Origin: Actinostola sp. cb2023
Taxonomy: Eukaryota; Cnidaria; Anthozoa; Actiniaria; Actinostolidae
Direction of reading: 5' to 3'
NCBI GenBank assembly: GCA_033675265.1
Contig: JAUJYZ010000968.1
Location: 167,751-231,750, forward strand
DNA length: 64,000 bases
Below, in pieces: positions 16,461-60,413 of the stretch; the first letter of the stretch is position 1, and the number at the start of each line of letters is the position of its first letter. The translations under genes were made by a program, and so were the position numbers. The notes under the pieces were generated by a model that did no database searches, was not told the origin of the DNA, and was given only the letters and a program-made list of their open reading frames with translations.

Positions 16461-16576
16461 CATCTGTGTCCCTCCTGGGCTTCCGTAAATAGGTCTATTG
16501 TTAGCTATTTGGCATCAGCCTGTTATGAAACAGTTACCGCAAGGATTTTCCCTCATTTTGTTTTCAACAAGCTTAA

Positions 16577-23447: not shown

Positions 23448-23495
23448 CTTCCTGGTGTATCCTGACCTAGGATAACAGCTCTTCTATGTAGATTC

Positions 23496-24085: not shown

Positions 24086-26327
24086 TAATTATATCCATTT
24101 TGAAATCCTAAACAAATAAGAGACGGACAATGTATACAAGCAAATACAAATTTCCTTTTAATAGAAATTGATTTAAGTTCAAATAAAATACAGTGTTTTG
24201 AACCAAACTTCCAAAAAATACAAATAATGGCGAACTACTGCTTTGTTAAAAATCTGGCGAATCACAGTCCATATTGATGTTGTCATAGCAACATATACTA
24301 AAAGTGTCATGTGATAATTAAAACACAAGAAGCCATTTTGTCTTGCACGCTTTGTATGCCTCGTGTAAGAGATGAACAGTCAGATAAATGAGGAAATGTC
24401 ATGTTTTTAATTTTCTTTTTCATCATCTGAATCGTAAATAACATATCTACGTTTCCTTGGAGTTGGAGAGACAGTTGGAGAAGCCTTTTTCGCTGAAGAG
24501 TAGACAGTAATCGTGCAATTATTGTAGTTAACTTTGTGCTTTGAGCTTGAAGCTTGATCGTTCATTCTAAACATTGGGACTGACTGCAAGACATCCTGAT
24601 TGCCATAAGGGATCATTGGTCGGAAGGAGTTATTGCTTGGAAGGACTCTTGGCTGAATTATCTGAACTGGCAGAAGTGCTTTGTTTGTGTTTGGAGCGTT
24701 TGGAGATTGAGATGTAGTAGTGGTACATGTACTTGACACGGAGGTCGACTGCACTGGAAAGCCACTGATTATGTGCGACAACTCTTTTCGCTGTTCTTCA
24801 TCAACTTCATCATAATCGTCTAGAGATGACTCTCTTGCATGGCCTGTGATTTCTTTTATTATGTGCCGAGGCTGTCCGGATTTTTTCAATTTCTGTACCA
24901 GGGTCTTTCTCATGCTGTGGTTCGTAATTCTCTTGGTTGTTGATAAACAAGACGACGCCATTGATTTCATGATGTTTCCGATTGTATTCTGTCCCATCCT
25001 TATTTTACCATACCAGATGTTTGGATTTTTTGGACGATTGATCACTTGAAGATATAGTGGCCCATTATCTTTCATTCCTTCGGGTCTCTTGGACAACCAG
25101 AGCTTAAACAGACGAACTGGGTCTCTTTCACCTCCATCAGTACTCGACATGACCTGGGGAGTTGTTCTGCGACGAATAGAAAGGCCTCCACTCCTTGTTT
25201 TGGTTGGATTTTCTGTAAACTTGATGCTTTCAGACCCATCCTCATGATTTATGAACTGGAAGTCTTCAATATATGCATCGTAATGGTCTTGACGGCCCCT
25301 AAATCCCATCTGCTCCGTCAAGTTTTTGAAGTTGACTTGTGTTAGCGTTCGGCCATTATGGTCGCCAAGCTGACCACTCGACCAGAGTTTTTCTTCTTCT
25401 TCGCCCGTTAGTGGACACGATTTGTTTGGTCGTTTACCTTTGCCTTGCATACGTAACGATAAAGCCTTTGCTTGTAAGGTTTTTTGCGAGTTAGCAAACT
25501 CTCTTGAGCGAGTGATACTGTGTTTGTAGTTCATCTGTTTGAGGTATCGATCAATGGCCGCCTGCATGATCTTCAGCGATTCTGGCTCGTAATCCTCTCC
25601 ATCAACCTTCTTAACTTCTGCATAAAATTGATTGAGTAACGTATTGAGGTCTGCTGGCTCAAGAGTCTCTATTTTTACAGTTACATCTCTGGACTTGCAC
25701 CATGTAGCCAGTACTTTCATCCAATATATGGTGGATCTTTTTGTGTTGGCGTTTTCGGCCGAGGCTTGTAGATGGGTTATGTCGTCTTCACTTAGAACAG
25801 GAAACCTTGACTGGTCAACATAACTGGCTGATAAATTTGTGGAACTTGAAGTTGTCTTTTCTGTAACTGTTGGCTTACTGGTAACACAATAATGAGAATT
25901 ACTGCTGCTGGGAATTTGCTCTGCTGTGTCCGTAAGATGTGTTTCTTCTCCAAAGACTCCTCCAAGGACGTCAAAATTCGGAAAATCTAGCTCAATGCTG
26001 CTGAGGATATCATCATCACAAAACTGTAAGTTATTTATAAACTCTTCCATGGATATTGTGTTAAAAAAATGACAATTTGTACTGAATATGTAGCAAACAA
26101 AGTGTCAAAATTTGCAAAACAAACAATCCCACTCAGCTTTTCAACATCAAAATGGCTTTCTAAATTCTTTGATTTGATTGGCTAACAAATGTCATGGCTG
26201 TTTTGTGATTGGCTGAACACAATGATGCGATTAAAGAAGCAAAGAGATGCGCTTTAGGAATTAATCGCATCCATTTTAACCAATCAGATTGCAGGATTTA
26301 CTAGTGATTTCAAAATGGATATAATTA
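24086..26327 (-). mobile_element. Crypton-type unit between perfect 22-bp inverted repeats
   Basis: TAATTATATCCATTTTGAAA (then TC) at 24086-24107 recurs as the exact complement at 26306-26327, enclosing a tyrosine-recombinase gene. Classical Cryptons are known for lacking terminal inverted repeats, so these may be recombination sites, or the gene may ride in another type of element. A clear target duplication was not seen. Confidence 0.55.
24407..26050 (-). CDS. Crypton/DUF3504-type tyrosine recombinase, intact (547 aa)
   Basis: A single uninterrupted frame. Residues 1-80 are acidic and Ser/Thr-rich. Residues 84-205 form the helical SAM-like DNA-binding half (TIYWMKVLATWCKSR). Residues 210-430 form the catalytic half shared by Crypton recombinases and the domesticated ZMYM2/QRICH1/KCTD1 proteins. 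Catalytic candidates are Arg in GFRGRQDHY (251 or 253), the H-x-x-R box NHSMRK (His378, Arg381), TGHARESS (His404) and the nucleophile Tyr413 in LDDYDEV. The tail (430-547) is Ser/Pro/Gln-rich and ends in the basic RKRRYVI. All catalytic positions appear kept and no stop is present, so the gene is recently active or under selection. Start chosen: first ATG, MEEFINNLQF. Confidence 0.85.
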   Translation of the reverse strand: MEEFINNLQFCDDDILSSIELDFPNFDVLGGVFGEETHLTDTAEQIPSSSNSHYCVTSKPTVTEKTTSSSTNLSASYVDQSRFPVLSEDDITHLQASAENANTKRSTIYWMKVLATWCKSRDVTVKIETLEPADLNTLLNQFYAEVKKVDGEDYEPESLKIMQAAIDRYLKQMNYKHSITRSREFANSQKTLQAKALSLRMQGKGKRPNKSCPLTGEEEEKLWSSGQLGDHNGRTLTQVNFKNLTEQMGFRGRQDHYDAYIEDFQFINHEDGSESIKFTENPTKTRSGGLSIRRRTTPQVMSSTDGGERDPVRLFKLWLSKRPEGMKDNGPLYLQVINRPKNPNIWYGKIRMGQNTIGNIMKSMASSCLSTTKRITNHSMRKTLVQKLKKSGQPRHIIKEITGHARESSLDDYDEVDEEQRKELSHIISGFPVQSTSVSSTCTTTTSQSPNAPNTNKALLPVQIIQPRVLPSNNSFRPMIPYGNQDVLQSVPMFRMNDQASSSKHKVNYNNCTITVYSSAKKASPTVSPTPRKRRYVIYDSDDEKEN

Positions 26328-28644: not shown

Positions 28645-29147
28645 ATTCATAAGGGCCTGAATTGATAAGCTTATGAAGTCTGACTACAGAAGGCCTACAT
28701 GAACTCATAAGCTTATGATGTCTGTCTTATGAAGTCTGATCACAGAGGGCCTTAACTCATAAGCTTATGAAGTCTGATCACAGAGGGCCTTAACTCATAA
28801 GCTTATGAAGTCTGATCACAGAGGGACTGAACTCATAAGCTTATGAAGTCTGATCACAGAGGGACTGAACTCATAAGCTTATGAAGTCTGATCACAGAGG
28901 GACTGAACTCATAAGCTTATGAAGTCTGATCACAGAGGGCCTTAACTCATAAGCTTATGAAGTCTGATCACAGAGGGACTGAACTCAAGCTTATGAAGTC
29001 TGATCACAGAGGGACTGAACTCATAAGCTTATGAAGTCTGATCACAGAGGGCATTAACTCATAAGCTTATGAAGTCTGACCAATTTCATAAGCTTATGAT
29101 GTCTGACCACAGAGGGACAGATCTCATAAGCTTATATATTATGAAGT
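28645..29147. repeat. 38-bp minisatellite with palindromic core
   Basis: About 12 units of the form CATAAGCTTATGAAGTCTGA then TCACAGAGGGACTGAACT. Each holds the 10-bp palindrome ATAAGCTTAT, and most also have TGATCA. Units vary at a few positions (CTTAACT versus ACTGAACT). The outer units are more diverged, as expected for a mature array. Non-coding. Confidence 0.9.
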
Positions 29148-33823: not shown

Positions 33824-36800
33824 CACATTCCACAAAAGCATTATGACTTTGAAGTAATTTCACTTAATGTCAGGGGAATGAGGGATAAAAATAAGCGCCA
33901 TAAAATGTTAAACTGGTTTGTTAAGCACGGAGCTACTGGTGGGGTAACCTTTGTTCAAGAAACTCATACTACCGCCGACAGCCAGCAAAAATGGGAGGAG
34001 TGTTTCAAAGGCGAAATTATCATGTCGCACGGGGCTAACAATAGTAAAGGGGTTGCTATTCTTATGGGTAATAAGCTCGATCAAACTATAACCGCGAGTG
34101 TTATTGATCAGAAAGGCAGATACATTATTTTACTAGTGGAAATACAGGGCTCTAACTTCTTACTGATTAATAGCTATCAGCCAAACGACGAAAAAAGTCA
34201 AGTGGAAGTTCTGAAAGAAATAATCGAGAAATTGGTTACAATAGATTATCCCGTTGACACTTCAATAATATGGGGAGGCGATTTCAATCTCGTATTTGAC
34301 CTTGACTTAGAAACGTCGGGTGGAAATCCATCGTTAAAACACAAAAGTATAGAAACTATGCAAACAATTTTAATGGATAGTGACTTATGCGACATATGGC
34401 GAGTGCGTAATCCCGATGTAAAGCGCTTCACATGGAGCGGATGTGCACAAGGGAAGAAGAGTAATAGCAGGGACAGATTGTTTAGGAGACTTGATTATTT
34501 ATTTGTTTCAGATAGCCTTCAACCGTTCATTGACAAAACTAGCATCATTCCTGCCCCCTCAACTGACCATCATGCCATCACGTTAAAATTCTGCTCGTTT
34601 AATGAAGGAAAGAAAGGTCCATCGTTCTGGAAGTTCAATAACTCTCTGTTGAGAGATGAGGTTTATGTTAAAGAGGTCAGCACGATAATAGAAAATAAAC
34701 AAAAGAGTTTTCGAAAAGAGGGCATAGCCAGCCCTCAAAACAAATGGGAGTTAATTAAGTACGAAATTAGGAAATTCTCAATATCATATTCGAAGACTAG
34801 GGCTAGAAAGTTTCGTGCACATTACAAAGATATAGAAAACAAAATTCAAAACGTCGAAAGTTTCAGAGGATGGGAAAAGGATGCTGATTTGTTAACAAAA
34901 CATGGACAATATAAATTAGAATTGGAAAATTATAGTAACTATGTAACTGAAGGAATCATACTGAGATCCAGGTGTAAGTGGTACGAGGAGGGAGAAAAAA
35001 ATACAAAATACTTCCTAACATTAGAAAAGAGAAACAAAGCTAAGACGCATATACGTAAATTAGTGGACGGAGATCAAACAATAATAGACCCAACAGATAT
35101 ACAACAAAAGATAACATACTTTTATAGCAGCTTATACTCATCAAAGAGTATGAAATCGGAAGAGGAGTGCTTAACTTTTTTATCAACTTTAAATACTCCG
35201 AAGATATCGGTTGAGGAAAGAATGAAATGCGAAGGTTGTCTTTCATTAAAAGAATGCTATGACGCCCTACAGAAACTGGGATCATCCAAATGCCCAGGCA
35301 ATGACGGTTTAACGAAAGAACTTTACATGACCCTTTGGCCCCTGTTAGGTCCACTTTTAGTAGATTGTTTGAATGAATGTTTTGAGAAGGGCTGCTTAAC
35401 TACATCTCAAAGACAGGCAGTTATTACAATGATTGCAAAACCGGGTAAAGACAATCGCTATTTGAAAAACTGGCGTCCAATAAGCTTGATAAATGTAGAC
35501 GTTAAAATTTGTACCACAGCCCTCTCCGCTAGAATTATTAGTATATTACCTAGTGTCATTCATCCGAATCAAGTTGCCTACATTAAAGACAGAAATATTG
35601 AGGAGCCGATAAAGTTTATTGAGGACCTGTTAGACCATACGTTAGCTGAAAATGAATCATTGCTCCTTTTTGCCGCAGATTTCGAAAAAGCATTCGACAG
35701 TATAGAACATAACTTTATTTTTGCGACATTAAACAACTTTGGGTTCGGAGAGCAGTTTATCAACTGGATTCGTATAATGTTCAACAAGACACAGAGCTGT
35801 GTATTAAACAACGGAACGGCTACAAACTTTTTCGATATAACAAGGGGCACGAAACAAGGAGACCCTATCTCTCCATATTTATTTATCTTAGCCATAGAGA
35901 TAATGGCGATAATGATTCGCGAAAATAGGGACATAAAGGGATTTAATTTAGACAAAGATACTATGTTGAAGATCCTACTTTTTGCTGACGATACAACCTT
36001 CTTTTTGCAAAATTCGGAATCTCTAAAAAAAGTATTGGAAGATTTTAGCAAATTTCAGCTCTATTCATCGTTAAAGATTAATGTGGATAAATCCGAGGTT
36101 GGCTGGATTGGCCCAAGAACAGGGCTCACAATTACTAAACCAGGTGAAAAAGAACTCAAATGGATTGACTTTCACGTTTCGGGTGTCAAAATTTTAGGGG
36201 TACATTTTTCTCATAATAAATTATATCGGGAGAAAAATAATTTTGAACGCATATTTGAAAACTTTAGGACAACACTCTCGATTTGGAATTCTAGAAATCT
36301 CACCCCTTACGGGAAGATACAAATTTTACGGGCGCTAGGTCTCTCTAAACTATATTATATCTGTACTAAAACAGGAGTGAAGGAGAGTTTTATAAAAGAA
36401 GTAAAGTCTGAGGTGGCAAAGTTTGTATGGAATGGGAAAAAACCAAAAATCAAATATAATACACTTATTGGGAATTATGAAGTGGGAGTGTTAAAGCTTC
36501 CTGATTTTGAGAGTATGATTAAAGCGAGTCACTTTAAATGGGCAACTAAACTACTTGATAACACTTATAGTTATTGGAAAGTGCTACCGTTACGGAAACT
36601 GAGAAGTATCGGGGGGCCTGAATGCATCAGAGAAAATTTTGACTGCACAAAAATACCTAAGGACTTGTCTTTATTTTACACTAACGTACTGAATGCATGG
36701 GCTACGTTTTGTGGCACAAAAATCGACGACAATCGGACCGACATTTTAAAACAGTCCCTGTGGAACAACATTTACATTAAAATTGATAAAGGGTACATGC

Positions 36801-37540
36801 AACGACTAGTTAAAAAGGGAATTCTGTTAGTAAGTGATTTATGGGACCCCACCACTGGCTTCAACTGGGAATGGGCGAAAATGAAAGGATTACTGGAGGT
36901 AGATTATATGAGTTGGAGGGGTTTAATTAGTGCTATTCCAGCGGAGTGGAAGAGAGAATTAAAGAAAAATATGCACATGCCTTCACAAGTACATGCTCCA
37001 CAGAGACAAATTGAAATAAGTGGCAAGAAGATTAATATAAACAAAATCAAAACAAAACAGAAGAGAGAATTAAAGAAAAATATGCACATGCCTTCACAAG
37101 TACATGCTCCACAGAGACAAATTGAAATAAGTGGCAAGAAGATTAATATAAACAAAATCAAAACAAAACAGATTTATGACCTATTTATTGACAGAAAGTT
37201 CACTGCTCCAACTTCTCAGCGTAGGTGGCAACAAATCTTTTCAGATATTTCTATTGACTGGGAATCAGCTTATTGTCTGATATATAAAACTACTATTGAT
37301 ACGAAACTTAGATGGTTTCAGTATAAAATACTTATGAATTGTCTATATTTAAATAAGGATCTAGTTAGATTTAAACTCCAAACTTCCCCTCTGTGTTCTT
37401 TCTGTCAATCTAATAACGAAACTATTGAACATATCTTTGTGTACTGTAAAGACTCAGCAACATTATATCTTGATATAACTAATTGGTTAAAACCGTTTAA
37501 AAGGCTGCACATTTACTGCTACTTTCTGTACTTATATTGA
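33824..37540 (+). CDS. LINE ORF2: AP endonuclease and reverse transcriptase
   Basis: The frame opens after a TAA at 33821-33823. The first ATG is 33878, yet the endonuclease begins upstream of it (FEVISLNVRGM), so the catalytic Asn lies before that Met. Endonuclease motifs: FVQETHT, GGDFN, RRLDYLFVSD, STDHHAI. Reverse transcriptase: LKNWRPISLINVD, FAADFEKAFDS, GTKQGDPISPYLF, LLFADDTTFFL. The end has a zinc knuckle (CSFCQSNNETIEHIFVYC). A 37-residue segment is duplicated exactly at 36950-37171. The frame ends at 37540 where the next element begins, so the last residues are foreign or lost. It otherwise looks functional for target-primed reverse transcription. Confidence 0.88.
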   Translation, partial: HIPQKHYDFEVISLNVRGMRDKNKRHKMLNWFVKHGATGGVTFVQETHTTADSQQKWEECFKGEIIMSHGANNSKGVAILMGNKLDQTITASVIDQKGRYIILLVEIQGSNFLLINSYQPNDEKSQVEVLKEIIEKLVTIDYPVDTSIIWGGDFNLVFDLDLETSGGNPSLKHKSIETMQTILMDSDLCDIWRVRNPDVKRFTWSGCAQGKKSNSRDRLFRRLDYLFVSDSLQPFIDKTSIIPAPSTDHHAITLKFCSFNEGKKGPSFWKFNNSLLRDEVYVKEVSTIIENKQKSFRKEGIASPQNKWELIKYEIRKFSISYSKTRARKFRAHYKDIENKIQNVESFRGWEKDADLLTKHGQYKLELENYSNYVTEGIILRSRCKWYEEGEKNTKYFLTLEKRNKAKTHIRKLVDGDQTIIDPTDIQQKITYFYSSLYSSKSMKSEEECLTFLSTLNTPKISVEERMKCEGCLSLKECYDALQKLGSSKCPGNDGLTKELYMTLWPLLGPLLVDCLNECFEKGCLTTSQRQAVITMIAKPGKDNRYLKNWRPISLINVDVKICTTALSARIISILPSVIHPNQVAYIKDRNIEEPIKFIEDLLDHTLAENESLLLFAADFEKAFDSIEHNFIFATLNNFGFGEQFINWIRIMFNKTQSCVLNNGTATNFFDITRGTKQGDPISPYLFILAIEIMAIMIRENRDIKGFNLDKDTMLKILLFADDTTFFLQNSESLKKVLEDFSKFQLYSSLKINVDKSEVGWIGPRTGLTITKPGEKELKWIDFHVSGVKILGVHFSHNKLYREKNNFERIFENFRTTLSIWNSRNLTPYGKIQILRALGLSKLYYICTKTGVKESFIKEVKSEVAKFVWNGKKPKIKYNTLIGNYEVGVLKLPDFESMIKASHFKWATKLLDNTYSYWKVLPLRKLRSIGGPECIRENFDCTKIPKDLSLFYTNVLNAWATFCGTKIDDNRTDILKQSLWNNIYIKIDKGYMQRLVKKGILLVSDLWDPTTGFNWEWAKMKGLLEVDYMSWRGLISAIPAEWKRELKKNMHMPSQVHAPQRQIEISGKKININKIKTKQKRELKKNMHMPSQVHAPQRQIEISGKKININKIKTKQIYDLFIDRKFTAPTSQRRWQQIFSDISIDWESAYCLIYKTTIDTKLRWFQYKILMNCLYLNKDLVRFKLQTSPLCSFCQSNNETIEHIFVYCKDSATLYLDITNWLKPFKRLHIYCYFLYLY
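36950..37171 (+). repeat. Perfect in-frame 111-bp tandem duplication inside ORF2
   Basis: 36950-37060 and 37061-37171 read the same. Each encodes 37 residues beginning KRELKKNMHMPSQVHAPQRQ. It lies between the RT domain and the C-terminal zinc knuckle. No mismatches were seen, so it is recent or an assembly error. Confidence 0.93.
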
Positions 37541-45915: not shown

Positions 45916-47037
45916 ATGTCTGCAATAGCTGTAGAAATCTCATCAGACACTGACTCGGATTCTTTTCTCAACCACAGGTAAAGTAGAAGCAATATGCATA
46001 TTTGTAAACTGAAATAACTAGATGGTATTCACCCGATAAACTTTTTTCAACTTGATATTCAGTAGTCTCTTCTCTGCGCAAAGAAACGAGATAAGGTAAC
46101 ACTACATCTGTTCATGTATTGCAACCCCTATTTGGGCCTATTTGACCAGAAACTGCCATCCCTTCCAATTCTACATTTTGTATTCTGCATATTGCCATAA
46201 TTTCTATGTTAAAAAGAGATTCCCAAAGGAGGGAGAGAAAGACTTGTGTGGTTGAACACGAATAGCATAGTCTGTATGTCAGTTGCAAGTAATAACTTTT
46301 TAAAAAAATTCACAATATATATAGTATTTGATATGACCAAGTGAACATAAAAACACAAATTTAATAAATTTTCTACATTTTGGCATAAAGAACGCCTAGA
46401 TTCACTGACTTTTGCATGGGCCAAATGGCTTTTAAAGATCCATCTCTTATACTTTTACTCATAAAATCATGGGCGGACTTCACGCTTCTGTGAACAGTGG
46501 GTCGGCTTTATTTACATAACCAGATTCATTTGACAATGGCAGACAGGCGATCCTCGGATGATCTTCTTGTAGGTGAATGTTTGTCTCTACCTCCCGAGTA
46601 CAAACCATACCAATATCAAATGTCCTCAAAATGTATGCAATATTTTTGATATGATAATTATTTGTTTCCTAGTCGAAACGATGATTTTGCTGATGGTGGT
46701 GGTGATGATGAAATATGCAGTGAAGATCGTGCGTCAAGTGTTGCAAGTTAAGAAAAATAGTCAAAGGCCGAGTCTCAGATAAAGACTGAAATAACTGTTT
46801 CAACTCGTATTTTTAAGACATGGTGATCAAGGCAGCTCTGATGACCCAATACTAGTTCAAGGTAAGTCAGCAATGACTTTGCATTTCATGCAACAATATG
46901 AGCCGCAAGTGTGGTTGTGGTGGGGGAAAAGAAGATGATGATGATTCGCGTTATTGATTGATGGAGGGATTGATTAATTGGCTGATTGTTTGAATAGGTT
47001 CTCCTATCAAGAAAGTCAAGAAAGATATTTCCAAAAG
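45916..47037 (+). CDS. Candidate short exons of a plus-strand host gene
   Basis: Several short open stretches have splice signals: 45916-45977 (MSAIAVEISSDTDSDSFLNH, ends CACAG|GTAAAG); 46536-46568 (MADRRSSDDLL, ends |GTAGGT); an acidic stretch near 46673-46752; about 46822-46861 (GSSDDPILVQ, ends |GTAAGT); and 46974-47037 (SPIKKVKKDISK, ends AAAAG|GTAAGT). Similar S-P-V-K-K micro-exons occur beyond the transposon at 53804 and 54044, so the transposon may lie in an intron. Phases are not all consistent and the product is unknown. Confidence 0.3.
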
Positions 47038-47057
47038 GTAAGTGTAGCTTTGTTTAG

Positions 47058-47445
47058 TACGGAAGCCGAGAAGGGCCAATCAAAAAATATATTAGAAATC
47101 CGAAAATATTTTGCAAATCCACATTTTTTTTATTCAAAATCCGAAAATATTTTGGAAATCCACATTTCTTTATTCAAAATCGAAAAATATTTTGCGAATC
47201 CTGAAATCTTTATTCAAAATCCGTAAATATTTTGGAAATCCACAATTCTTTTTCAAAATCCGAAAATATTTTGCGAATCCTGAAATCTTTATTCAAAATC
47301 CGTAAATATTTTGGAAATCCACATTTCTTTATTCAAAATCCGAAAATATTTTGGAAATTCGATTTTTTTTAAATCCAGAAATCTTTATTTTTATCGATCC
47401 GATATCGATCCTTACACCCTGGTGACACCGATCATTGCGGTCAGA
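47058..47445. repeat. Left terminal inverted repeat with internal tandem repeats
   Basis: The TIR includes about seven units like AATCCGAAAATATTTTGGA with ATTCTTTATTCAAA, then CTTTATTTTTATCGATCC and CACCGATCATTGCGGTCAG, the last shared with the right arm. Confidence 0.85.
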
Positions 47446-47466
47446 GGTATTACCGTGCAATCCAAA

Positions 47467-48788
47467 ATGGCGGCAGACGTGACTTACATGTACTGTCAGG
47501 ACTGTCAGTCGTTTTTCTTGCCAATGTGCTAACTCATGTTTTGCTATAATTGTGGGAAAGCATTCAGTAATACAGGGTGCTTTTGCAGCAATTGTGGTAC
47601 GAAGAAAAGAAGCGACCAAAGCACATTTCCAAGTTTTGCAGACGAGAAAGAAGCCATAACAAACTACTTTCGAAGAGGATACAAGTATGAAACAATTATT
47701 TAGTTTTTATCAGAATATCACGGTATCTCATTGAGTTTGCGGACTTTAAAGAGAAGATTAAAAGAGTATAAGTTGGATAAGAGATCCCACTCTACATCGG
47801 AAGATACTGTTTGTCAAATTATTCAAGATGAAATTCAGGGACCTTCATCATCACTAGGTTATCGAGGAATGTGGAACAAATTAAGGACAAGCTATGGCAT
47901 TACAGTACCGCGAGATACTGTTATGAGAATTTTAAAGGAATTAGATCCAGAGGCATCCGCTCTTAGAAAGGCAAGAAAGCTACAACGTCGAAGTTACGTA
48001 TCACCTGGACCAAATGCAGCTTGGCATGTAGATGGATACGACAAATTGAAACCATTTGGCCTGCCTATACATGGTTGCATTGACGGATATTCCCGAAGAA
48101 TTGTGTGGCTCAAAGTATGTAGAAGCAACAAAAACCCAGTAATCCCAGCAAGTTTCTTTTTACACTGTGTAGAAGAATTGGGCACATGTCCTCTGCTTGT
48201 TCAGACAGATTGTGGTACAGAAAATGGTATTTTAGCAGGAATTCAGTGCAAATTTGTTGAAAGTGAAAATGCTCATCGATATTCATCATCACATGCTAAT
48301 CAAAGAATCGAAAACTGGTGGTCTCATTGCAAGAGAGGGTTTACAGCCTGGGTAATCGATTTTTTCAAAGCTCTAGTTTACAATGGAAAGATTGCCCTAG
48401 GTAATCCTCTTCACATGGAATGTGTATGGTTTGTATTTTCTAATTTCTTGCAGTCTGAACTTGACAAGGTAAAGCAAGAATGGAATACGCATTACATACG
48501 ACAGTCCAGACACAACACAGTGTCTGGTGTTCCAGATGAACTTTTTTCTTACCTCAATCTCATGGACATACAAATTGTGGTATCCATATTTCCAAAGATG
48601 ACATTCAAAACATTCTTGATGAGAGAGATATTTATGCTGAGGCAGATTTGGCTGGAAATACAGTTGACAGTGAAATGGTAGAGTACTTTAGCTATGTTGT
48701 CAAGGAAGAAAATCTGCAACACCCACCTGGCAGCTGGTCTCAAGCCAAAGCTATGTATGAAAAGCTTATAGAGCTCTCAGGCCACTGA
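47467..48788 (+). pseudogene. IS3EU-like DDE integrase (transposase), two stops and a frameshift
   Basis: The frame from ATG 47467 has a Cys-rich head (YCQDCQSFF; CYNCGKAFSNTGCFCSNCG), interrupted by TAA at 47530 and TAG at 47701. Then comes an IS3-like helical region (LRTLKRRLKEYKL; LGYRGMWNKLRTSYGITV; ILKELDPEA) and a retroviral-type catalytic core: first Asp in AWHVDGYDKLKPFG, second in VQTDCGTENG, Glu in NQRIENWWSHCKRG, then WNTHYIRQSRHNTVSG. Near 48570 the frame shifts and the tail continues to 48788 (HPPGSWSQAKAMYEKLIELS). Both stops fall where a C-to-T change in a Gln codon would explain them. All three catalytic residues remain. It is at most a recent pseudogene unless introns bypass the stops. 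Confidence 0.8.
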
Positions 48789-48870
48789 CTGACCTTCAAT
48801 GATTTACCTGTCTAATTTAACATACAATTTAACTACAGTTGTATTTTTGCTTGTATTTTTAACCCTTTGA

Positions 48871-48969
48871 TTCCCTGCTGGCAGAGGTTTCTTTTCCTTG
48901 TCCTGGGCTTATTTTCCTACGAGGCCCAGGATGAGGGAAAAGAAACCTCTCACCTCTGCCAGCAGGGAA
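48871..48969. repeat. 99-bp foldback hairpin
   Basis: TTCCCTGCTGGCAGAGG and CCTCTGCCAGCAGGGAA at the ends, with GGTTTCTTTTCC pairing further in. It lies between the two convergent genes of the IS3EU-like element, where it might act as a boundary or terminator; that is speculative. Confidence 0.7.
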
Positions 48970-50217
48970 ACCCTTCAACACCTAGATTTAGCGATTTTCT
49001 TGCCCTGAAATTGAAAAATTGAATTTTGCTGAGAAAGTGGCTTTTTGTTTCACAATAAATTGATGTATTTGGAAGAAAATTGAAGTCAAATTTTGCTCAT
49101 TTTGGATGTTGTGAAATGATGTCATGTTTTGATTTCTATGAAAAACAATCAGCTTTCAATCAGCTGACAAAAGCCATGAATCTCATTATCTGACCCCAAA
49201 TTCTTGTTTGACCACTATGTGATTTGCTCTCTCAGAAAATGATGCCTAATTTTACTAATATCAAATTGAATTAGTTTTACGGACTTGGTACCAGTCCCCT
49301 GCTCGTTTTGGTAATGGCTAATAAATTTTCTGAGAGAGCAGATCAAACTTAGCTAGTCTGCAAAGTTTGGTGAACTTCGGCTTAATATTGACGATGCTAG
49401 AGGTAACTAAGGGCATTAAAGATGACAATTTTCCCATACAAACTCTGTAATTTTTTGATGTTGTCCATCCAAACCATACATTCACTTTAAAATTTTGGAT
49501 GGACAACGCAATTTCAAAAGCTTATAATTCTGACAGAATTCGCTCAAATCACATCAAACTTTGCACAGATGCTAATTTCAACATGCTGTTTCATGTCATG
49601 AACTTAATTTCGTAATTACATTAATTCTAATGAACTCGTTCCCAGTCCCTTGCTCGATTTGGTAGTGGCTAATTGAACACTTGTAATTGAGATGCCCAAA
49701 CTATAATTTATTGATAATGTTGGGATTCCTGTTTTGTGCTGAATGTTTTAATCCCTTATTGCACTGTCAGCATTAAGAGATCATTCAAGCCTGGTATTAG
49801 TGTGTCATATAATCAGGAACAATTACATGTACACCTGTAACTACATGTACATATGCAATATAGAGTGACTATTAAAAATCGCAATTACACTACTGTCAGG
49901 GACTCAGTAGAGGTGCATGTACTTGTAACATTGATTATTCAATATAGCAAAATACCATTAACTAACAATATTGGTTAATAAAGACTTGCACATAGTTTCT
50001 GGTTCACACTAGTTACAAATGTTTTGTGTGCTCATCGCACAATTCAAACAAGGTTTTGAAAATGTACACAACAATAATAATTATCTAATAAGTCATAGTG
50101 TAAACACTAACTCCATAAAATACATTTGTCATTGTACTAGTGATGAGATAACTATATCATATGGGTATCTGATTGGGTCTAGTGTAACTGTATTAGCCTG
50201 TTTTATGTAGCTTATAT
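48970..50217. other. Spacer between integrase and HECT genes
   Basis: No coding region recognised. A block containing CAGTCCC(C/T)TGCTCG(T/A)TTTGGTA occurs twice (about 49292 and 49645). Confidence 0.5.
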
Positions 50218-53200
50218 TTAGACAGACCCAAAGCCACAACATTCCTTTAACATTGATACCCCAGCTTCAATCATAGATGCTAGTGAAATGATATGAAGGG
50301 GAAGATGCAACAGTAAATCACAAGTAGAAGCCCTTGGTCGACATTTGCAGTCATATGGGCAACCATATACAAATCGGACCTCAATCTTCTTTGCAAACCC
50401 AAGAACTGGTACCTTTGGACTTCCAGTGGCAAATTTCAATACATCCTCTACTGTTGATTCACAATTTGGAACTCCTTTGGAAAGATAAAGTAGAATTTTG
50501 AGTTATTTGATTTCATTGTCGTATTGCTAATTGGGTACTTGTAATATTAATATTATTGATAGATGTTAAGAATGTGGAGAAGAGTTAGACAAATAATATT
50601 AATAATCATTTTATTTCGACTTCCTATACTTACCATTGTTGTCTAGTAACTCAACAAAGTCACAAAATGCCTTGTATGTACGAATTTCTCTGTCTTTAAG
50701 ACTATCATTTAAAGAAAATGTGACTTTGAGGTGAGCAAAGAGGTCATCAGCTGTAATGTGTTCTTGTTCTTGAGCAACAAACACTTTTCGAAGTTGATCT
50801 TTATGTTTCTTTACAGAATCCAACACACCATGGAGTTGCAGACCATTTGCCATCTGATCTATCAGTGGTAGTTTGGACTCAATGCATGTCTTGATATACA
50901 TGGATCTGTTGAGAAATAACCACCTTGAAGAATACTAAATTTGTACTAGTTATATTGTTTGTTATATTATGTAATAGTGTCCCGATTAGAGTGATTCCAA
51001 TAAACCTGGGCATTACTAACTACACCAATACACACTATTAGACAGTTCACTCTTTCGTTTTCTTTTGTTCCTTTGCATCTAATTAATAGTGCCCAGGTTT
51101 ATTGGAATCACTCTAGTGGAGCACTTGTGCTCTGCTAGAAGAGATCCTGACACTTTAATAAAGTTATTATTATTATTATTATATTATTATTATTACTAGT
51201 TTTGCCTGCCAGTGATCCACAATTACACAGGGTACCCAACAATTAAGATCACAAAATAATTAGAGTGATTCCAATAAACCTGGGCATTACTAATTACACT
51301 AATACACACTATTAGACACTCACTCTTTTGTGTTTCTTTTGTTTCCTTGCATCTATTAAAGTGCAACTGAAATGAAATATTTTATTGCATTTTACATTAT
51401 AGATCATTGAAAGAAATAAAGTTATCATAAATATATTTTTGTAAAATGATTACTTTCTAAGATATTCAAGAAAAACATGTTGCAGAGTGTGACGTCACAA
51501 GGTTTGTAAAGTACTTTGTTTCACTCAAATCCTCTAAATGTATTTTGACTTTTACACTGGAAAAAGAAAAGAACATCAAACAATGTAAAGCTTTTTCTCA
51601 GGCACATGATGTGTACTTTTACTCAGCTAAAAGTTGTTTCATGTTCTTTTCTTCTTCCACTGTAAAAGTCAAAATAAATTTAGAGGATTTGAGTGAAACA
51701 AAGTACTTTACAAACCTTGTGACGTCACACTCTGCAACATGTTTTTCTTGAATATCTTAGAAAGCAATCATTTTACAAAAATATCTTTATGATAGCATTA
51801 TTTCTTTCAATAATCTATAATATAAAACGTAATAAAATATTTCACTTCGGTTGCACTTTAAACACTGACAGCTAATTAGTAGTGCCCAGGTTTATTGGAA
51901 TCACTCTACCGGTATATAGACTAAAACCATGAAACAGTGCTAACAATTAGCACTAAATAGTACAATGTCTTTTGTTTTCTAGTGTTTCATTGGTGCTATT
52001 TAGCACTAACTAGTTTGTACTGTTTCGTGGTTTTAGTGTTTGCACTCTATTATATTGTTATTGTGAAAATGTATTTAACTGGATAACAGATAACCTAATT
52101 CAAGTATTTCAATACATGCAGTAATCTTTGATAATTTACCTAAGAATTCTCTCTTTCCCAGACATTGTTTCACGTTGTGGTACACCCCTGTAGCCCACTT
52201 TCTGTAGAGCATCTAAAGTGGTGTCCTCTAAAAGGACATTACGAAGTTCTGCTTCTGTTTTCACACTGTCAATCTATAATTTTGTAAAATTAAATTATAA
52301 CTGAAATGTTTTTTTTCATACATAATATTTCAAACATTTACAAGAATTGACATGTATCCTAGGAATTTAATATAAACTGACCTTTGTTGCAACATCTTTA
52401 AATTCTGTTTCCATCAGCTTAGCTTTGTTTACTTGTATCTCGTTTATACCTCCACACAAATAATCGTACACCCATCCTGATAGAAAATCAGGTGGAGGCC
52501 CTTCTTGGGCAATGGAATTGGCCATTAGTTCCCCAACAATAGACAAACTCCCATCAGCAAGGGTCATAGTGCTTCCACATGGTGAATGGCCCCCATCTCC
52601 TTCATCAACAAACAGTCTTTGTTTGATAACTTCAAAACAATAAACAATAAACAAATAATTTATACATATATTTACCATAAGTATGCTATTTCCACCTCTT
52701 TTTACCAACAACTGAAAAATTGTATTTTTTTAAAGCAACCACTACTGCCTTCACTAGCTACTAGCTAACCTGTAAAAAAATCACGCTTTGGTCCCCCATC
52801 ATCTATAGCTGCTTCTCCAAGAAAAACAACCTTAATAGTATGGCAAGGCTTAACCCAGGGTCGTTTTCTCGATTCTAAGAAATCTTCCCACAGAAACTTT
52901 CTTCGAACATGTATGCGGAATATCTTCTTATCAACATGGTTTGATATGCCCTTTAATATGTCCTTGATATCTGGTGGATTTGGAACCTCTGCGGCACTGC
53001 ATGTAGGTTGCTCATCTGCAGCATTATCACCATTGGACTGGTCACACATGACATTTTGACTGCTCGTATTAACATGCAGTGTCGACATTAGATCATTATA
53101 CGTAAGCTCTTCAGAGGTGCGCTGTTGGTCACAACACATATCAGCATGCTCTTCGATTTCATTAATTTGAAATGAAATCAAACATGTGGGGCATACCACC

Positions 53201-53376
53201 CTTCCATCTTGGCCGTTTATGGCCTCAAAAACACTGTGGTCCAATTCATGATCACTTTCCTCATCAGAAACTGAGCTCAAAAGGGCGCTAAACTGACCGC
53301 TGACCGCAATGATCGGTGTCTCCAAGGTGTAGGATCGATATTGGATCGATAAAAATAAAGATTTCGGGATTTGCAA
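50218..53376 (-). CDS. HECT-type E3 ubiquitin ligase (G2E3-like) with UBZ-like finger, five exons
   Basis: Exons 53376-52770, 52629-52382, 52273-52140, 50905-50634 and 50474-50218 join in phase to 1,518 bp (505 aa and stop) with GT-AG introns. Residues 62-81 (CPTCLISFQINEIEEHADMC; Cys62, Cys65, His77, Cys81) look like a UBZ/Rad18-type finger. The HECT fold follows: RKRPWVKPCHTIKVVFLGE, AAIDDGGPKRDFF, QRLFVDEGDGG, PPDFLSGWVYDYLCGG, FATGSPKVPVLGF. The catalytic cysteine is Cys472 in PRASTCDLLLHLP. A HECT enzyme takes ubiquitin from an E2 onto this Cys and passes it to a substrate. The chosen start (MQIPKSLF) lies in the right inverted repeat; an untranslated or alternative first exon is possible. 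Intron 3 holds three MITEs. Confidence 0.85.
50987..51115. mobile_element. TA-flanked MITE, GAGTGATTCC family, copy 1
   Basis: TAGAGTGATTCCAATAAACC and its complement (ending CACTCTA) bracket about 129 bp in HECT intron 3. Confidence 0.75.
51261..51907. mobile_element. GAGTGATTCC-family MITE, copy 2, carrying a nested TTAA MITE
   Basis: Same ends as copy 1. Its interior is interrupted at 51360-51857 by another element; the flanking halves match copy 1 across the gap. Confidence 0.78.
51360..51857. mobile_element. TTAA-flanked palindromic MITE, AGTGCAACTG family
   Basis: Ends AGTGCAACTGAAATGAAATA and complement (CGGTTGCACT), with TTAA at 51356-51359 and 51858-51861. The arms are nearly full-length inverted copies (TGACGTCACAAGGTTTGTAA appears on both sides). 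498 bp. Confidence 0.85.
51919..52038. repeat. 120-bp foldback element
   Basis: ACTAAAACCATGAAACAGT pairs with ACTGTTTCGTGGTTTTAGT; GCTAA...TTAGCACTAAATAG is repeated and inverted inside. Confidence 0.7.
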
Positions 53377-53631
53377 AATATTTTCGGATTTTGAATTAAG
53401 ATTTCGGGATTTGCAAAATATATACAGATTTGAAATAACAAATTAGGATTTGCAAAATATTTTCAGATTTTGAATAAAAAAATGTGGATTTGCCAATTAT
53501 TTACGGATTTTGAATAAAGATTTCGGGATTTTTGCAAAATATTTTCGGATTTTGAATAAAAAAATGTGGATTGGCAAAAATATTTTCGGATTTCTAATAT
53601 ATTTTTGGATTGGCCCTTCTCGGCTTCCGTA
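53295..53631. repeat. Right terminal inverted repeat with internal tandem repeats
   Basis: Complement of the left arm, including the CGATCATTGCGGTCAG block, the tandem ATTTTCGGATTTTGAATAAA units and the terminal GGCCCTTCTCGGCTTCCGTA. Confidence 0.85.
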
Positions 53632-53803
53632 GTTTAGTGTGCTCAAAGAGCTCAGTGATTACTTGTTCTGACATAATTGTACATACTTGCAGGACTTTGC
53701 AAAGGGAGCCTACATGTATACTAATAGGAGGTACAAAGTAGAGCTGTTTTATAATCTCTTGTTTGTGTTTTTAAAATTACTTCTTTCTTACAATTCCAGA
53801 CTC

Positions 53804-54067
53804 TCCTGTTAAAGAAACCGATATAGAAAGGTAATTGATTTAAAACTAATTAATGCAATTAATTATAATCTGATTTATCATTTTTTATGATTAGACGACT
53901 AGTTTTACCAGGTATTCTATAAACTAGAATCAAGGTACATGTAAAACCAAAAACATTTCTCCAATATATTTTATTAATTACATAACTGGTTTGCTGAAAT
54001 GAAATGACCTTTTTTCCCTAAAGGTTTCATTACTAAAATGAAAAGTCTGATTCCCCTGTTAAGAAAA
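53804..54067 (+). CDS. Two candidate micro-exons (S-P-V-K motif)
   Basis: 53804-53830 (DSPVKETDIER) lies between TTCCAG and GTAATT. About 54044-54067 (SDSPVKKR) lies between AAAAG and GTAAAT. They resemble SPIKKVKKDISK at 46.97 kb, on the other side of the 6.6-kb transposon. Product unknown. Confidence 0.3.
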
Positions 54068-55808: not shown

Positions 55809-58055
55809 AGAGCTACTGACGCGATTTTTGGGCACATTTTAGACAAAGTTGATAAAAAGTATTAGGTTTGTTAATTACGAATTAAAAAATTTTTTCCTTA
55901 TAAACAATCATTTATGAATCCGAGAAGAAAGCAGTTTTTAGAATTTCCCGCGGCGCACGAAAACAACGAGGCAGTGACGTCACAGCCAGAACTCCCCGTA
56001 ATCCAGAGTCGGTAAACACAATAATACTTCATTGTTTCTTCGAATTTTTAGAACTAAATAAATATGCCAAGTTGTTGTGTAGCTGCTGAATGTGACCATA
56101 AAGATAATCAGCTGTATGTGTGGCCTTCAGATAAGAATATTGCCCGGGCATGGACAAAATTTGTACAATTAAAAAAGGATAAATGGCCACCTAGTTCAAG
56201 ATCTGTACTTTGTAGAAAGCACTTCAAAGACGAATGCTTCACTAATCTTGTATTGGTCAATTTAAAGCAGGTCTAGCGAAACGGTATGTTTTCATTGTAC
56301 TCTGTGGTCTACTACTTTTGTATAATATTTTATAAGCTTCGTTTTCATTCATTTTTGTCAATTTTGATTAATTATAAAGTGACATGTTCGTGACTATGTA
56401 CGTCACTATATCACCGGGTATATCAGTAACTTATATGTAAACAATTTGTCAACTTTTTTCTCTTTCAGTTTGCTTCTTAATAGAATAACTGCCGTTCCTA
56501 CTATTCATAGTAGCCAGTTGTTATCGGGTACTCCAGAGCCAGCAGAAACCCCCAACCTGCAGGTCTGCATTTAAAAAACGCGAGACCAGAAGAACGTCCA
56601 CAAGCACAGCAGAAAATTGTGAACACAAGGAAGCGATTTCCACAAAAGCAAAGGAACAAGGCACACAAACTCATAACAAGCTACTTCTACTGTTATCTAT
56701 TTGTCTGACCTGCTATTCTACTGATGTTCAACTATATCAAAAGTTGTCTGGATGTATGCTTATTGTCTTCATCAAATGTATTTTGCTGTAAAACATTGAG
56801 AGGATGGAGGAGCCAACCAGAAATTAAGGGAACTCCATAGAATAGAGGCTCTATTCTATTTACTGGTGCATTACCTTCCAAAGTAATACGTTTGTTGACC
56901 TCACTAAACAAAGCTTGCATTTCTCCAAGAACGTTCTTTAGACACCAACAAAGATATCTTCACCAGGTCGTATCCGAGATATGGCTTTCAAAGCGAGACA
57001 GTTACTTAGTGGAACTAAAAGATGAGCAACTGATTGTTGGAGGAGATGGCAGGTGTGATAGTATGGGCCACTGTGCTAAGTATGGGTCATATACAGCCCT
57101 AGAATTAACAATCAATAAAGTACTGACTCTTGAGCTCGTACAGAGCAATGAAACCTCATCATCTAATGCAATGGAGTTGATGGGACTGAAAAAAATGGTA
57201 GATGTATTTAACCTGTTTAATTTGAATGTTCGTGATGTAGTAACTGACAGACAAAAACAAATTAACAAATGGATAAGAGAAGACTGGGAAGTTGTGGATC
57301 ACTTTTATGATTGCTGGCATGTTGCCAAAAGCATCAAAAAGAAATTGCAGGCTCTAGCCGAAAAGAAAAACTATGAAATAATAGGCCAGTTAATCACTTT
57401 TATTGGTGACGTCCTCAGAGCACAACAACAAGGACTTGATTGAGGCTAATTGTAGGTCTATCATTAACCATGTACAGAACAAGCTTGATGGGCATAGTGA
57501 TCTGTTCCCATATTGTGCTCATGATGACCTACCTGACACAGAAATAAGGTCAATCAAGTGGCTACAACCAGACACAGAGGTATTCGAGGCACTAGAAAAA
57601 ATCATCTTAGACAAGAATTTAATCAAAGATATTGCAAAATGTTCAAAACATGGTCAAACATCTGTAGTGGAGGGTTATCACAGTTTAGTAAACCAGTTTG
57701 CCCCAAAGATGTTTCATTTCTCATATGATGGTATGAGGAGCAGATTGTATCTTGCAGCCTTACATTACAATGAAAACAGTTCAAGACCCCAAAAGAAACA
57801 TTTACAAAATGAAGAGCAGTACAACATTATTTACCCCAAGTACAAGAAAGGTGGTCATATTGTAAGGAAAATACTGGAAGAATGTTCATATGGGTATGTA
57901 GATGACCTACTCATAAGTTTAATCCATGCAGTTGAAAATGGTCAGCGTGTGATGCACACAGTTGCCAATCCACCACCATTATGCTCAGCCTTTACTCGGC
58001 CAGACAAAGACCAAGCTGTTGGAGAACATACAACAAGATTTGCAAGGGTGTAATT
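55809..58055 (+). pseudogene. Kolobok-type THAP-DDE transposase, broken copy
   Basis: TTAA at 55805-55808 followed by AGAGCTACTGACGCG may be the element start. THAP exon 1 (56064 to about 56280): MPSCCVAAEC, LYVWPSDKNIARAWTKF, VLCRKHFKDECF. Exon 2 (from about 56469, after CTTTCAG) has the end motif ITAVPTIHSS and a basic stretch. The catalytic part (56892-58053) has RTFFRHQQRYLHQV, GGDGRCDSMGHCAKYGSYTA (first Asp), VVTDRQKQINKWI (second Asp), FYDCWHVAKSIKKK, then a frameshift with loss near 57420, and TSVVEGYHSLVNQFAPKM (Glu) and LYLAALHYNENSSRPQ. The DDE set and THAP head fit Kolobok, whose target duplication is TTAA. At least two frameshifts, so inactive. The matching right end was not found. 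Confidence 0.82.
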
Positions 58056-58079
58056 TTACTCTTATAGATAGTGGTTATA

Positions 58080-58200
58080 CTTAACCTGTGAAATAAAAAC
58101 CAAAAATTCTCAGTAGACACCAAATATATGAAAACCATTTTAGGCTAACCTGGAAAAATCTAGGTTGTTATATGAAGCTTTTTACTCAGGTTAAGTAAAA
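58080..58200. repeat. Decayed fragment of the CAGTAAAAACCCG-type MITE
   Basis: Blocks such as CTCAGTAGACACCAAATATA and GAAAACCATTTTAGGCTAAC resemble the interior of 44779-45188. Confidence 0.45.
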
Positions 58201-58680
58201 TCACTCTACAAGTTATGATATCATAATATTAATTTGTTTCTTTGAAATAATTATTGTCAAATCTTACGATGAATCCAGAAATTGTACACTCTATATTCAT
58301 TATCTACTATGGTTATATAAATATATATAAAATGAAGCATAATTGTAACAATTCGCAACTAATCTAAGAATCAGGCAATGAACTCTTAATCTAATCATAT
58401 CTATTTAAAGTGCCACTACGATGAAAATTGACTACCTTTTGAAGAATGTTTTCGTGATGAACATGTCCATAATAAACATGTCCATAATAAACATTTCGAA
58501 TGAAAAAAAATATTGTAAATGTGAATTTAGCGTGTAATTTTTCATGATTTATACAGCGAAAATACTGTCCGCCATTGAAATGAGCCTTCAGATTTCCATC
58601 AGCGGATTCTATATTGAGACGTCATATACTCAACCCACTTCAGACTCCTCGTTTACACTAATTCTTTGGCATTAGTACTA

Positions 58681-59415
58681 TGGATTCTTCATCTGAGTCG
58701 TCAGATATTCCTTCGGATCTTGATTACAGTGGTTCAGAAGATGAAGGCAATGATTGTGAGCCTTTAGCTACTGAACAAGAAGTATCAGATTATGAAAATA
58801 GAAGAGCAAGTGAGGATGAGGAGGAAGCTCGATTCAAAGAGAGATTTTCTGGCGAAACAGAAATAGTTTGAAGGTTATTTGGTCTTTTATCCACTATATT
58901 GCACTAACCTTTTGCCTATTTTTATTATTGTAGGTGTAAGTGCTCGAGCTGTTCACTGGAAATGATCGTAAAGGAAGATGAATGCAGGTGTTGTGTCGAG
59001 TTCGACCGATGCACAGACAAGATGGCTGATCATGAATTAAATCACTGCATTACTTTACACCCTGCCTTCAGAGATATTTGTCTTAATACATACGTTCTGG
59101 AAGTTGCGGCAATTGGCTTAAAAACTAAAGGAAGAAGATCGTACACTGCTATGTTGGCTGAAGGACGCACTTCTGAGTTGAAAAATTGAAATGACAAATA
59201 AGCTTAATAATATTTTTACAGCTTATTTGTTGCCAATTATTTATAGATCATATCGATTTAAAATAATCTGAACTGATTATGTTTTGAAACATTTTATTTC
59301 TAGGTTTTATAGAGCTGTTTCTTACAGACAATTCGTGAGATTTGTGTGGGAATGCATTGGTCATTCGAACAGAGTTCCCCTCCCTTGTGGTGTATACAAC
59401 ACAATTCGAAAATAA
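58681..59415 (+). pseudogene. P2X7-ballast-like protein, three exons
   Basis: Exon 1 (58681 on) is acidic: MDSSSESSDIPSDLDYSGSE, SDYENRRASEDEEE, RFSGETEIV. Exon 2 (from 58934, after TTGTAG) reads CKCSSCSLEM, ECRCCVEFDRC, CITLHPAFRDICLNTYVLEV. Exon 3 (59304-59415, after TTCTAG) reads RFYRAVSYRQFVRFVWECIG and VPLPCGVYNTIRK. This is the full order of the Cys-rich P2X7 C-terminal domain (C-x-C-x-x-C, E-C-x-C-C, C-I-T-x-H-P, Y-R-Q-F-V-R, L-P-x-C). The donors after exons 1 and 2 lack GT where expected, so the copy is probably broken. No channel part is present. Confidence 0.78.
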
Positions 59416-59457
59416 TACAACACAATATCAAATTGTAAATAAAACATATAGACAAAT

Positions 59458-59594
59458 TTACATGGAGTTGTCAGTGTCATATGGAACACACTGTCCTCTC
59501 TTGTGGCGTTTTCTGGGGTTACCACAAGTTTTACAAGTCGGTTGTTTTGGCCTTTCATTGTTCCTGGTTGTTGTCAATGCTTGGACCTCAGCTT
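59458..59594 (-). pseudogene. C-terminal exon of a Kolobok-like transposase (zinc knuckle)
   Basis: After TTTTCAG, the exon reads EAEVQALTTTRNNERPKQ then CKTCGNPRKRHKRGQC and ends YDTDNSM, stop. A Cys-Cys-His-Cys knuckle of this kind closes many THAP-DDE transposases. It faces the P2X7-like gene tail to tail. Only this exon is visible. Confidence 0.55.
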
Positions 59595-59757
59595 CTGAAA
59601 ATATATTATACATAATTTGTAATCATATTACATACAAATACTGTGTTTATTGTCATGCCACTATGCCAATATATTATTGTAGAATACCATTGATCTTATT
59701 AATTAATATTTATTTAAAAAACTTCCAACAGAAATTAGCCTGCGTAGCCAGGCTCTA

Positions 59758-59832
59758 GGGGAAAGGAGGGGAGGGGAAGGGAGAAAGAAGGAGAGGGACT
59801 GGAGAAGAGGGGGCGGAGAGAGGTGGAGGGAT
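59758..59832 (+). repeat. G-rich purine tract
   Basis: Runs of GGGG and GGG separated by A/G (GGGGAAAGGAGGGGAGGGGA) could form a G-quadruplex on the plus strand. It lies about 120 bp upstream of the helicase fragment. Confidence 0.6.
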
Positions 59833-59954
59833 AGCGTGCAGTCACCTATTGTTATTTTTCGTGTGTAGCATTCGCCAACGAACGCTGATCACCCATTGGC
59901 TAAAACCCTGTCAATCAAAGAGTTCACAAATCCAGTTCAGATTTTAGTTTCAAG

Positions 59955-60413
59955 ATGGCTGACGAGTTCGAGGAGTGTTTGGAGTTTGTTGTAAATGTCT
60001 TAAAAGAAAAGGTTTTCACCATTAAAGTGAAGCCCGAACAGAAGAAAGCTATAAGGCAGCTGTACGAAGGAAAATATTTAATGGCTGTCCTCCCGACAGG
60101 GTACGGGAAGAGTTTAATTTTTCAACTATTAGTCATGATGAAACATCGAAGTGGAAGTGCTTGTGTTCTAGTGATATGCCCTTTAATGAGCATTATCAAT
60201 GACCAAATTGAAGAGGTTGAATCGATGGATGTCTCTGCATGTAATCTGACTGAAAAGCTGGAAAACCTTCACGAGGTAGAAGCGGGAAGATACGAAATTG
60301 TATACGCGTCCGCCGAAAGTGCAACTGACAAGAGGTTTCTCGATGTACTCAAAAGCGACTCGTGCTTCACACGGAATCTTATGGCGTGCATTGTCGACGA
60401 GTCGCACACATAG
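59955..60413 (+). pseudogene. RecQ-type helicase, N-terminal fragment (152 codons)
   Basis: MADEFEECLEFVVNVLKEKV is followed by KPEQKKAIRQLYEGKYLMAV (Q-like motif), LPTGYGKSLIFQLL (Walker A), VLVICPLMSIINDQ (motif Ia) and ACIVDESHT (motif II, D-E-S-H in place of D-E-A/S-H). A stop follows at once. A RecQ core needs about 200 more residues plus the zinc domain, and none is seen. The DNA after the stop holds a 124-codon frame (60426-60800) with no helicase motif. It is either a truncated copy or exon 1 with an unseen donor. Similar fragments are common in cnidarian genomes, some inside transposons. Confidence 0.75.

Follow-up and report, generated by a model that had tools for sequence, protein, structure and literature searches.

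Introduction

The IS3EU/GingerRoot superfamily of Repbase is characterized, in the accessible sections of its description, by TA..TA ends, by a target-site duplication (TSD) that is usually 6 bp long, and by a transposase that lacks the HHCC motif and has its first catalytic Asp 100-300 residues from the N-terminus (PMC10045372). The IS3EU elements of rust fungi end in TAYGG..CCRTA and hold a TET/JBP gene between opposed transposase and alpha-kinase genes, the TET/JBP product being read by the author as a counter-silencing enzyme (PMC12730594, accessible sections). Much can be learned from the accessory enzyme genes that eukaryotic cut-and-paste transposons carry. Here we describe an element at positions 47058 to 53631 of a 64,000-nucleotide stretch of Actinostola sp. 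cb2023 DNA (contig JAUJYZ010000968.1, positions 167,751 to 231,750; the whole stretch is called the window below), which holds a DDE transposase gene and, facing it, a gene for a HECT-type E3 ubiquitin ligase. We think it probable, with considerable room for doubt, that this is an IS3EU-type transposon copy in a degraded state, and that the autonomous form carries the HECT gene as an accessory. That the HECT gene is transposon cargo, as proposed in an initial annotation of the same DNA, is likely: both genes lie within one TSD-flanked pair of terminal inverted repeats, and the alpha-kinase gene of the rust elements provides a parallel (PMC12730594, accessible sections).

Boundaries of the element

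One complete copy is delimited by TACGG..CCGTA ends, inverted arms and the hexamer GTTTAG on both flanks.

47058..53631: transposon, one complete copy
47052..47057: left target-site duplication, GTTTAG (sequence and flank-pair control)
53632..53637: right target-site duplication, GTTTAG (sequence and flank-pair control)
47058..47448, + strand: left terminal inverted arm, 391 bp, first letters TACGGAAGCC (local alignment)
47096-47358: 40-bp repeat, about 6.6 copies, inside the left arm
53296..53631, - strand: right terminal inverted arm, 336 bp (local alignment)
53354-53593: 40-bp repeat, about 6 copies, inside the right arm

Both ends, in either orientation, carry TACGGAAGCCGAGAAGGGCC, all 20 of their terminal bases being matched, and the arms are 98% complementary over their outermost 55 bp; the 40-bp repeats make up the bulk of their length. 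As a control, TAYGG/CCRTA pairs 200-15,000 bp apart were collected across the whole window and their 6-bp flanks compared. Among 98 TAYGG and 73 CCRTA words, the pair 47058/53631 was the only one with identical flanks, so that the boundaries are not a product of chance. The exact ends, the GTTTAG duplication and the long inverted arms reported initially are thereby upheld. The word GGCTTCCGTA at 16478 was considered as a further element end and rejected, as it has no partner with matching flanks in the window. The element is a real, young copy that fits the IS3EU type, in which neither gene is complete as assembled.

The transposase gene

The first of the two genes is read rightwards from near the left arm.

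47536..48788, + strand: IS3EU-like DDE transposase gene, 417-residue type
47536..47598, + strand: N-terminal zinc ribbon of the transposase, MFCYNCG...FCSNCG
48031-48033, 48208-48210 and 48310-48312, + strand: catalytic D, D and E codons (from the numbering of relative P0007 and the sequence)

The encoded protein scores 103 bits with the Pfam family rva_4 (cut-off 26). The triad D166/D225/E259, numbered as in the open transposase relative P0007, is the same in all 24 aligned transposases, and none of the 13 families that these proteins match at E 0.01 is the integrase zinc-binding (HHCC) family. Structure comparison, for which P0007 was used rather than the window protein, indicated an integrase-type fold. 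Among the matches listed, which include 120 of 1,136 transposase relatives, no HECT protein and transposase came from contigs of equal length, and such equality would be no more than a hint of a shared contig. A scan of genome contigs with the transposase as the only query gave one 3.8-kb contig from a sponge-symbiont assembly, in which a transposase relative is broken and HECT has no match at E 0.01. Viral contigs yielded 34 and 101 pattern matches, with no stretch confirmed as a relative of either the transposase or the HECT protein. A fusion of HECT and rva_4 was not seen among 53 proteins in the precomputed Pfam column, most rows of which list no domain.

The transposase frame is interrupted by one in-frame TAG (47701-47703) and by one frameshift, which lies in a run of T near 48545. 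Of the DDE integrase with two stops and a frameshift described initially, the integrase and the frameshift thus stand, with one stop in place of two. Apart from these lesions the window differs from P0007 at a single residue, and the existence of so similar an open relative implies that the damage is either recent or an assembly error. The second of these options, with lesions that are sequencing or assembly errors in a frame that is really open, is compatible with the preferred reading and is in our estimate rather unlikely. The single residue difference and the position of the frameshift in a homopolymer speak for it. However, the TAG is a substitution and not a change in homopolymer length, and P0007, which differs from the window at another residue, need not represent the same locus.

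The HECT gene

The second gene runs on the opposite strand, and its third intron contains two further small elements.

52770..53271, - strand: HECT exon 1, from VSDEES, where the match to Actinostola P0001 starts
53134..53193, - strand: UBZ-like finger, CPTC...HADMC
52382..52629, - strand: HECT exon 2, its start 4 residues short relative to P0130
52140..52273, - strand: HECT exon 3
50634..50905, - strand: HECT exon 4
50218..50474, - strand: HECT exon 5, with the catalytic Cys codon at 50320-50322 and the C-terminus GFGSV (Phe at -4)
50987..51115: small element inside HECT intron 3, bounded by inverted TAGAGTGATTCC ends
51261..51908: another element inside HECT intron 3, likewise bounded by TAGAGTGATTCC ends

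The five exons join in phase across GT..AG introns. The spliced product reaches 34.9 bits with Pfam HECT (PF00632), above the cut-off of 23.9. It has the catalytic Cys in an ASTC motif and a Phe at position -4 from the C-terminus, a residue with a known role in HECT ligases, and the same holds for 7 of 7 family alignment rows extending to the C-terminus. The finger is less clear-cut: the UBZ-like finger named in the initial annotation is present as CPTC..HADxC, but the zf_UBZ profile gives 12.9 bits on the spliced window copy, under the Pfam cut-off of 25.6. The same profile is found at E 0.01 in 1 of 26 HECT relatives, and the family profile matches the UBZ of WRNIP1 at E 0.0082. Both nested elements are non-coding, with inverted TAGAGTGATTCC ends of 36 bp, and the larger contains a palindrome with arms of 237 nt that are 92% complementary.

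The frame of exon 1 is open to 53442 without an ATG, and its donor site falls at ...DDGGPKRDFFT/G. Counted from the upstream stop, the open frame comprises 528 codons including its own stop; the catalytic residue, earlier numbered Cys472, then becomes Cys494. The first in-frame Met is codon 102, and on the - strand no ATG occurs in any frame within 53275-53631; a complete HECT frame with a start codon was not found in the window copy. Of the five-exon gene said to be in phase over 1,518 bp, the exons and the phase are retained, while the start of that frame, counted back from the stop codon, is a TTG codon. The earlier description of the ligase as intact does not hold, given the absence of an ATG before codon 102, the 4 residues lacking at the exon 1/2 junction relative to P0130, and a front end, seen in relatives, that is not detectable here.

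Decay of the two genes

The open HECT frame had also been taken to have outlived the transposase, perhaps as a gene in the course of domestication. At the rate of two lesions in the 1,254 nt of the transposase, 2.25 would be expected in the 1,413 nt of HECT exons, and none was seen (Poisson probability 0.105); under equal decay, two lesions in total would both fall in the transposase with a probability of 0.22. Taken with this 22% chance, the lack of a start codon and of the front end overturns the claim that the ligase is preserved in the window copy, and the open relative P0007 likewise counts against it. As evidence of selection, two lesions versus none is weak, and the argument was discarded.

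It is accordingly very improbable that the HECT gene of the window copy is in host use while the transposase decays, even though its frame runs without stops over 1,413 nt against two lesions in the other gene. Besides the equal-decay figure, there is no start codon before codon 102, and the damaged transposase has a nearly identical open relative. In addition, a domesticated gene would be expected to have lost its mobility signals, whereas the ends and the TSD of the window copy are perfect.

Relatives of the ligase and its missing front end

Among five relatives compared, P0130 from Actinia tenebrosa is the closest over the whole HECT part (47% identity over 449 columns). Actinostola P0001 matches the window without a difference over 148 residues of exon 1 and 45 residues of exon 3, and bears a ubiquitin-like front end directly ahead of the matching residues; its gene model, which leaves out the end of exon 1, exon 2 and exons 4-5, terminates in a tail that we take to be an ABHD-like stretch. 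Neither this front end nor the tail was detectable within the window, in 10 kb upstream and 50 kb downstream, and P0001 therefore probably represents another copy. Similarly, when the front ends of P0001, P0002, P0003, P0005 and P0006 were compared with the window, the best match had an E of 0.19, the zinc ribbon of P0006 excepted.

That ribbon matches the zinc ribbon of the transposase in the window (48% identity over 21 residues), at E 0.076 when the long front end served as query and at E 0.012 when the ribbon was used by itself. Of 24 aligned transposases, 22 have an N-terminal C..C..C..C ribbon, as do 9 of 26 aligned HECT relatives, several of the HECT rows counted as ribbon-less lacking their N-terminal end. 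Pfam Zn_Ribbon_1 is likewise found, at E 0.01, in 13 of the 24 and 6 of the 26. At the level of sequence, the common ribbon is a suggestive link between ligase and transposase, not proof of common origin.

The longer HECT relatives have, besides a UBZ-like finger, a ubiquitin-like domain that is our reading of predicted strands and helices, and some add the zinc ribbon. Structure comparisons were done on P0003 for the ligase rather than on the window protein, with fold lists that cover the HECT part only, and show a bilobed HECT fold. The named relatives span nine anthozoan genera, and the 90%-identity cluster of P0003 has 45 members, perhaps from many species or assemblies. This cross-genus conservation indicates constraint on the HECT family, not on the window copy.

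Host G2E3 has N-terminal PHD/RING-type fingers. An identity with it was rejected, as no PHD/RING family was found in 26 relatives at E 0.01, nor in the window copy at E 0.1; the result bears on the longer relatives, since the window copy and several rows lack the front end.

Interpretation

The autonomous form of the element would hold two genes facing each other, one for a DDE transposase and one for an accessory HECT-type E3 ubiquitin ligase. The transposase would cut at the TACGG..CCGTA ends and join them to a target cut with a 6-bp stagger, with the full-length ligase acting as a helper in trans. A zinc-ribbon module, possible in both proteins, may recruit the ligase, either to the ends of the element or to the transposase, and there it might ubiquitinate a chromatin or silencing factor. 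In the window copy the ligase front end is missing and, if the assembly is right, the transposase frame is not open, so that the copy probably owes its persistence to other copies, for which it is only a substrate.

Several observations weigh against this reading. The two genes were seen together in a single physical copy, which leaves room for a one-off capture. Annotations of the named HECT relatives read G2E3-like, HECT-domain or uncharacterized protein. The gene model of P0001, which may be a chimera of the prediction, skips exons and so cannot count as evidence that a complete ligase exists. Finally, the ribbon likeness covers some 21 residues of a common module and may be convergence.

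A one-off capture would have placed a host HECT gene of a multigene G2E3-like family in a single IS3EU copy or lineage, as a passenger without a role in transposition. The G2E3-like annotation of several relatives, a host-like multi-exon structure and the absent ligase front end of the window copy are in line with this alternative, which we nevertheless regard as unlikely, if the most serious competitor: the spread over nine genera with some large 90%-identity clusters (P0003, 45 members), the same exons with other neighbours in P0001, and the zinc ribbon common to some HECT relatives and the transposases all speak against it.

A further alternative leaves the anatomy of the preferred reading as it is and changes the target, so that the ligase would ubiquitinate the transposase, as dose control, and not host factors. 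The similar N-terminal ribbons of both families could bring the two proteins to the same site, and the genes converge inside one element; the window copy, however, lacks the ligase front end, and we consider this version doubtful. The broader proposal, that anthozoan IS3EU elements have a standing accessory in a full-length ligase (zinc ribbon, ubiquitin-like domain, UBZ finger and HECT) with a transposase-type ribbon, which would ubiquitinate either a host silencing factor or the transposase at the element, as a ubiquitin system encoded by the transposon, and might be the source of coral G2E3-like genes, is offered tentatively, at clearly less than an even chance.

If an accessory HECT ligase in animal IS3EU elements is real, it would single out the ubiquitin system as another front between transposon and host, and some coral "G2E3-like" predictions would be transposon genes and not host genes.

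Surroundings in the window

Exon-like peptides ahead of GT sites occur on both sides of the element on the + strand (SPIKKVKKDISKR at 47000-47037, SPVKETDIER at 53800-53830), which suggests that it was inserted in an intron of a host gene. Other open frames and repeats lie further away.

2-793, - strand: open frame cut by the window edge
12.2-16 kb, approximately: nearly identical frames every 810 bp or so, apparently a tandem array of long units
19542-23483, - strand: long open frame with reverse transcriptase (RT), RNase H and integrase, probably a Ty3-type retroelement
24410-26104, - strand: DUF3504/QRICH1/phage-integrase-type open frame, perhaps a tyrosine-recombinase element
28726-29135: 38-bp tandem array, 11.1 copies, 89% matches
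33824-37537, + strand: LINE-type open frame (endonuclease, RT, zf-RVT)
36949-37172: exact 111-bp tandem duplication inside the LINE-type frame
56841-57440, + strand: weak Mutator-like transposase frame (E 0.005)
57394-58050, + strand: frame without a match
59904-60410, + strand: DEAD-box helicase frame

The frames from 56841 to 60410 may belong to a further transposon that carries an accessory gene. The frame at 2-793, of interest only because rust IS3EU elements carry alpha-kinases, had been suspected by eye to be the start of an alpha-kinase gene, and was set aside as it has neither Pfam nor PDB support.

Comparison with known systems

In searches of an open-access library without Repbase Reports, no paper was found that links IS3EU with HECT, nor one that links HECT, DNA transposons, terminal inverted repeats and ubiquitin; the combination may already stand in Repbase. 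The term "HECT domain" occurs in PMC8195603, the accessible sections of which hold nothing on a transposon-borne HECT gene. A G2E3 match has been listed among unclassified repeats of a fish (PMC5638112, accessible sections), which hints at repetitive genes of this kind elsewhere as well.

Compared with solved HECT structures (Smurf1, Rsp5, HUWE1 and UBR5), the ligase is alike in the bilobed fold, the catalytic Cys and the C-terminal Phe, with an identity of only about 15-20%; the WW, C2 and UBR families were absent from Pfam scans of the window HECT copy and its relatives. Closer likeness is found in the anthozoan genes annotated as "G2/M phase-specific E3 ubiquitin-protein ligase-like" (P0130 of Actinia tenebrosa, P0003 of Acropora muricata), which share the candidate UBZ-like finger and HECT with the window copy. 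The longer of them differ in having a ubiquitin-like front end and, in some, a zinc ribbon, both of which are missing in the ligase of the window copy.

With IS3EU/GingerRoot the element has in common the TA..TA ends, the 6-bp TSD and a DDE integrase-like transposase without HHCC, whose first Asp (D166) lies in the described range; the words "HECT" and "ubiquitin" are absent from the main text of that description (PMC10045372). By ends, TSD and DDE features, all read from sequence, it fits the IS3EU type. The rust-fungus elements are alike in their TAYGG..CCRTA ends, 6-bp TSD and opposed accessory enzyme gene, but their hosts are fungi and their accessory enzymes an alpha-kinase and a dioxygenase, and neither "ubiquitin" nor "ligase" appears in PMC12730594. 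A role similar to that suggested here for the ligase has been proposed for the TET/JBP genes of fungal IS3EU, through a different enzyme. The window element follows the plan of the rust elements, except that its accessory enzyme is a HECT ligase.
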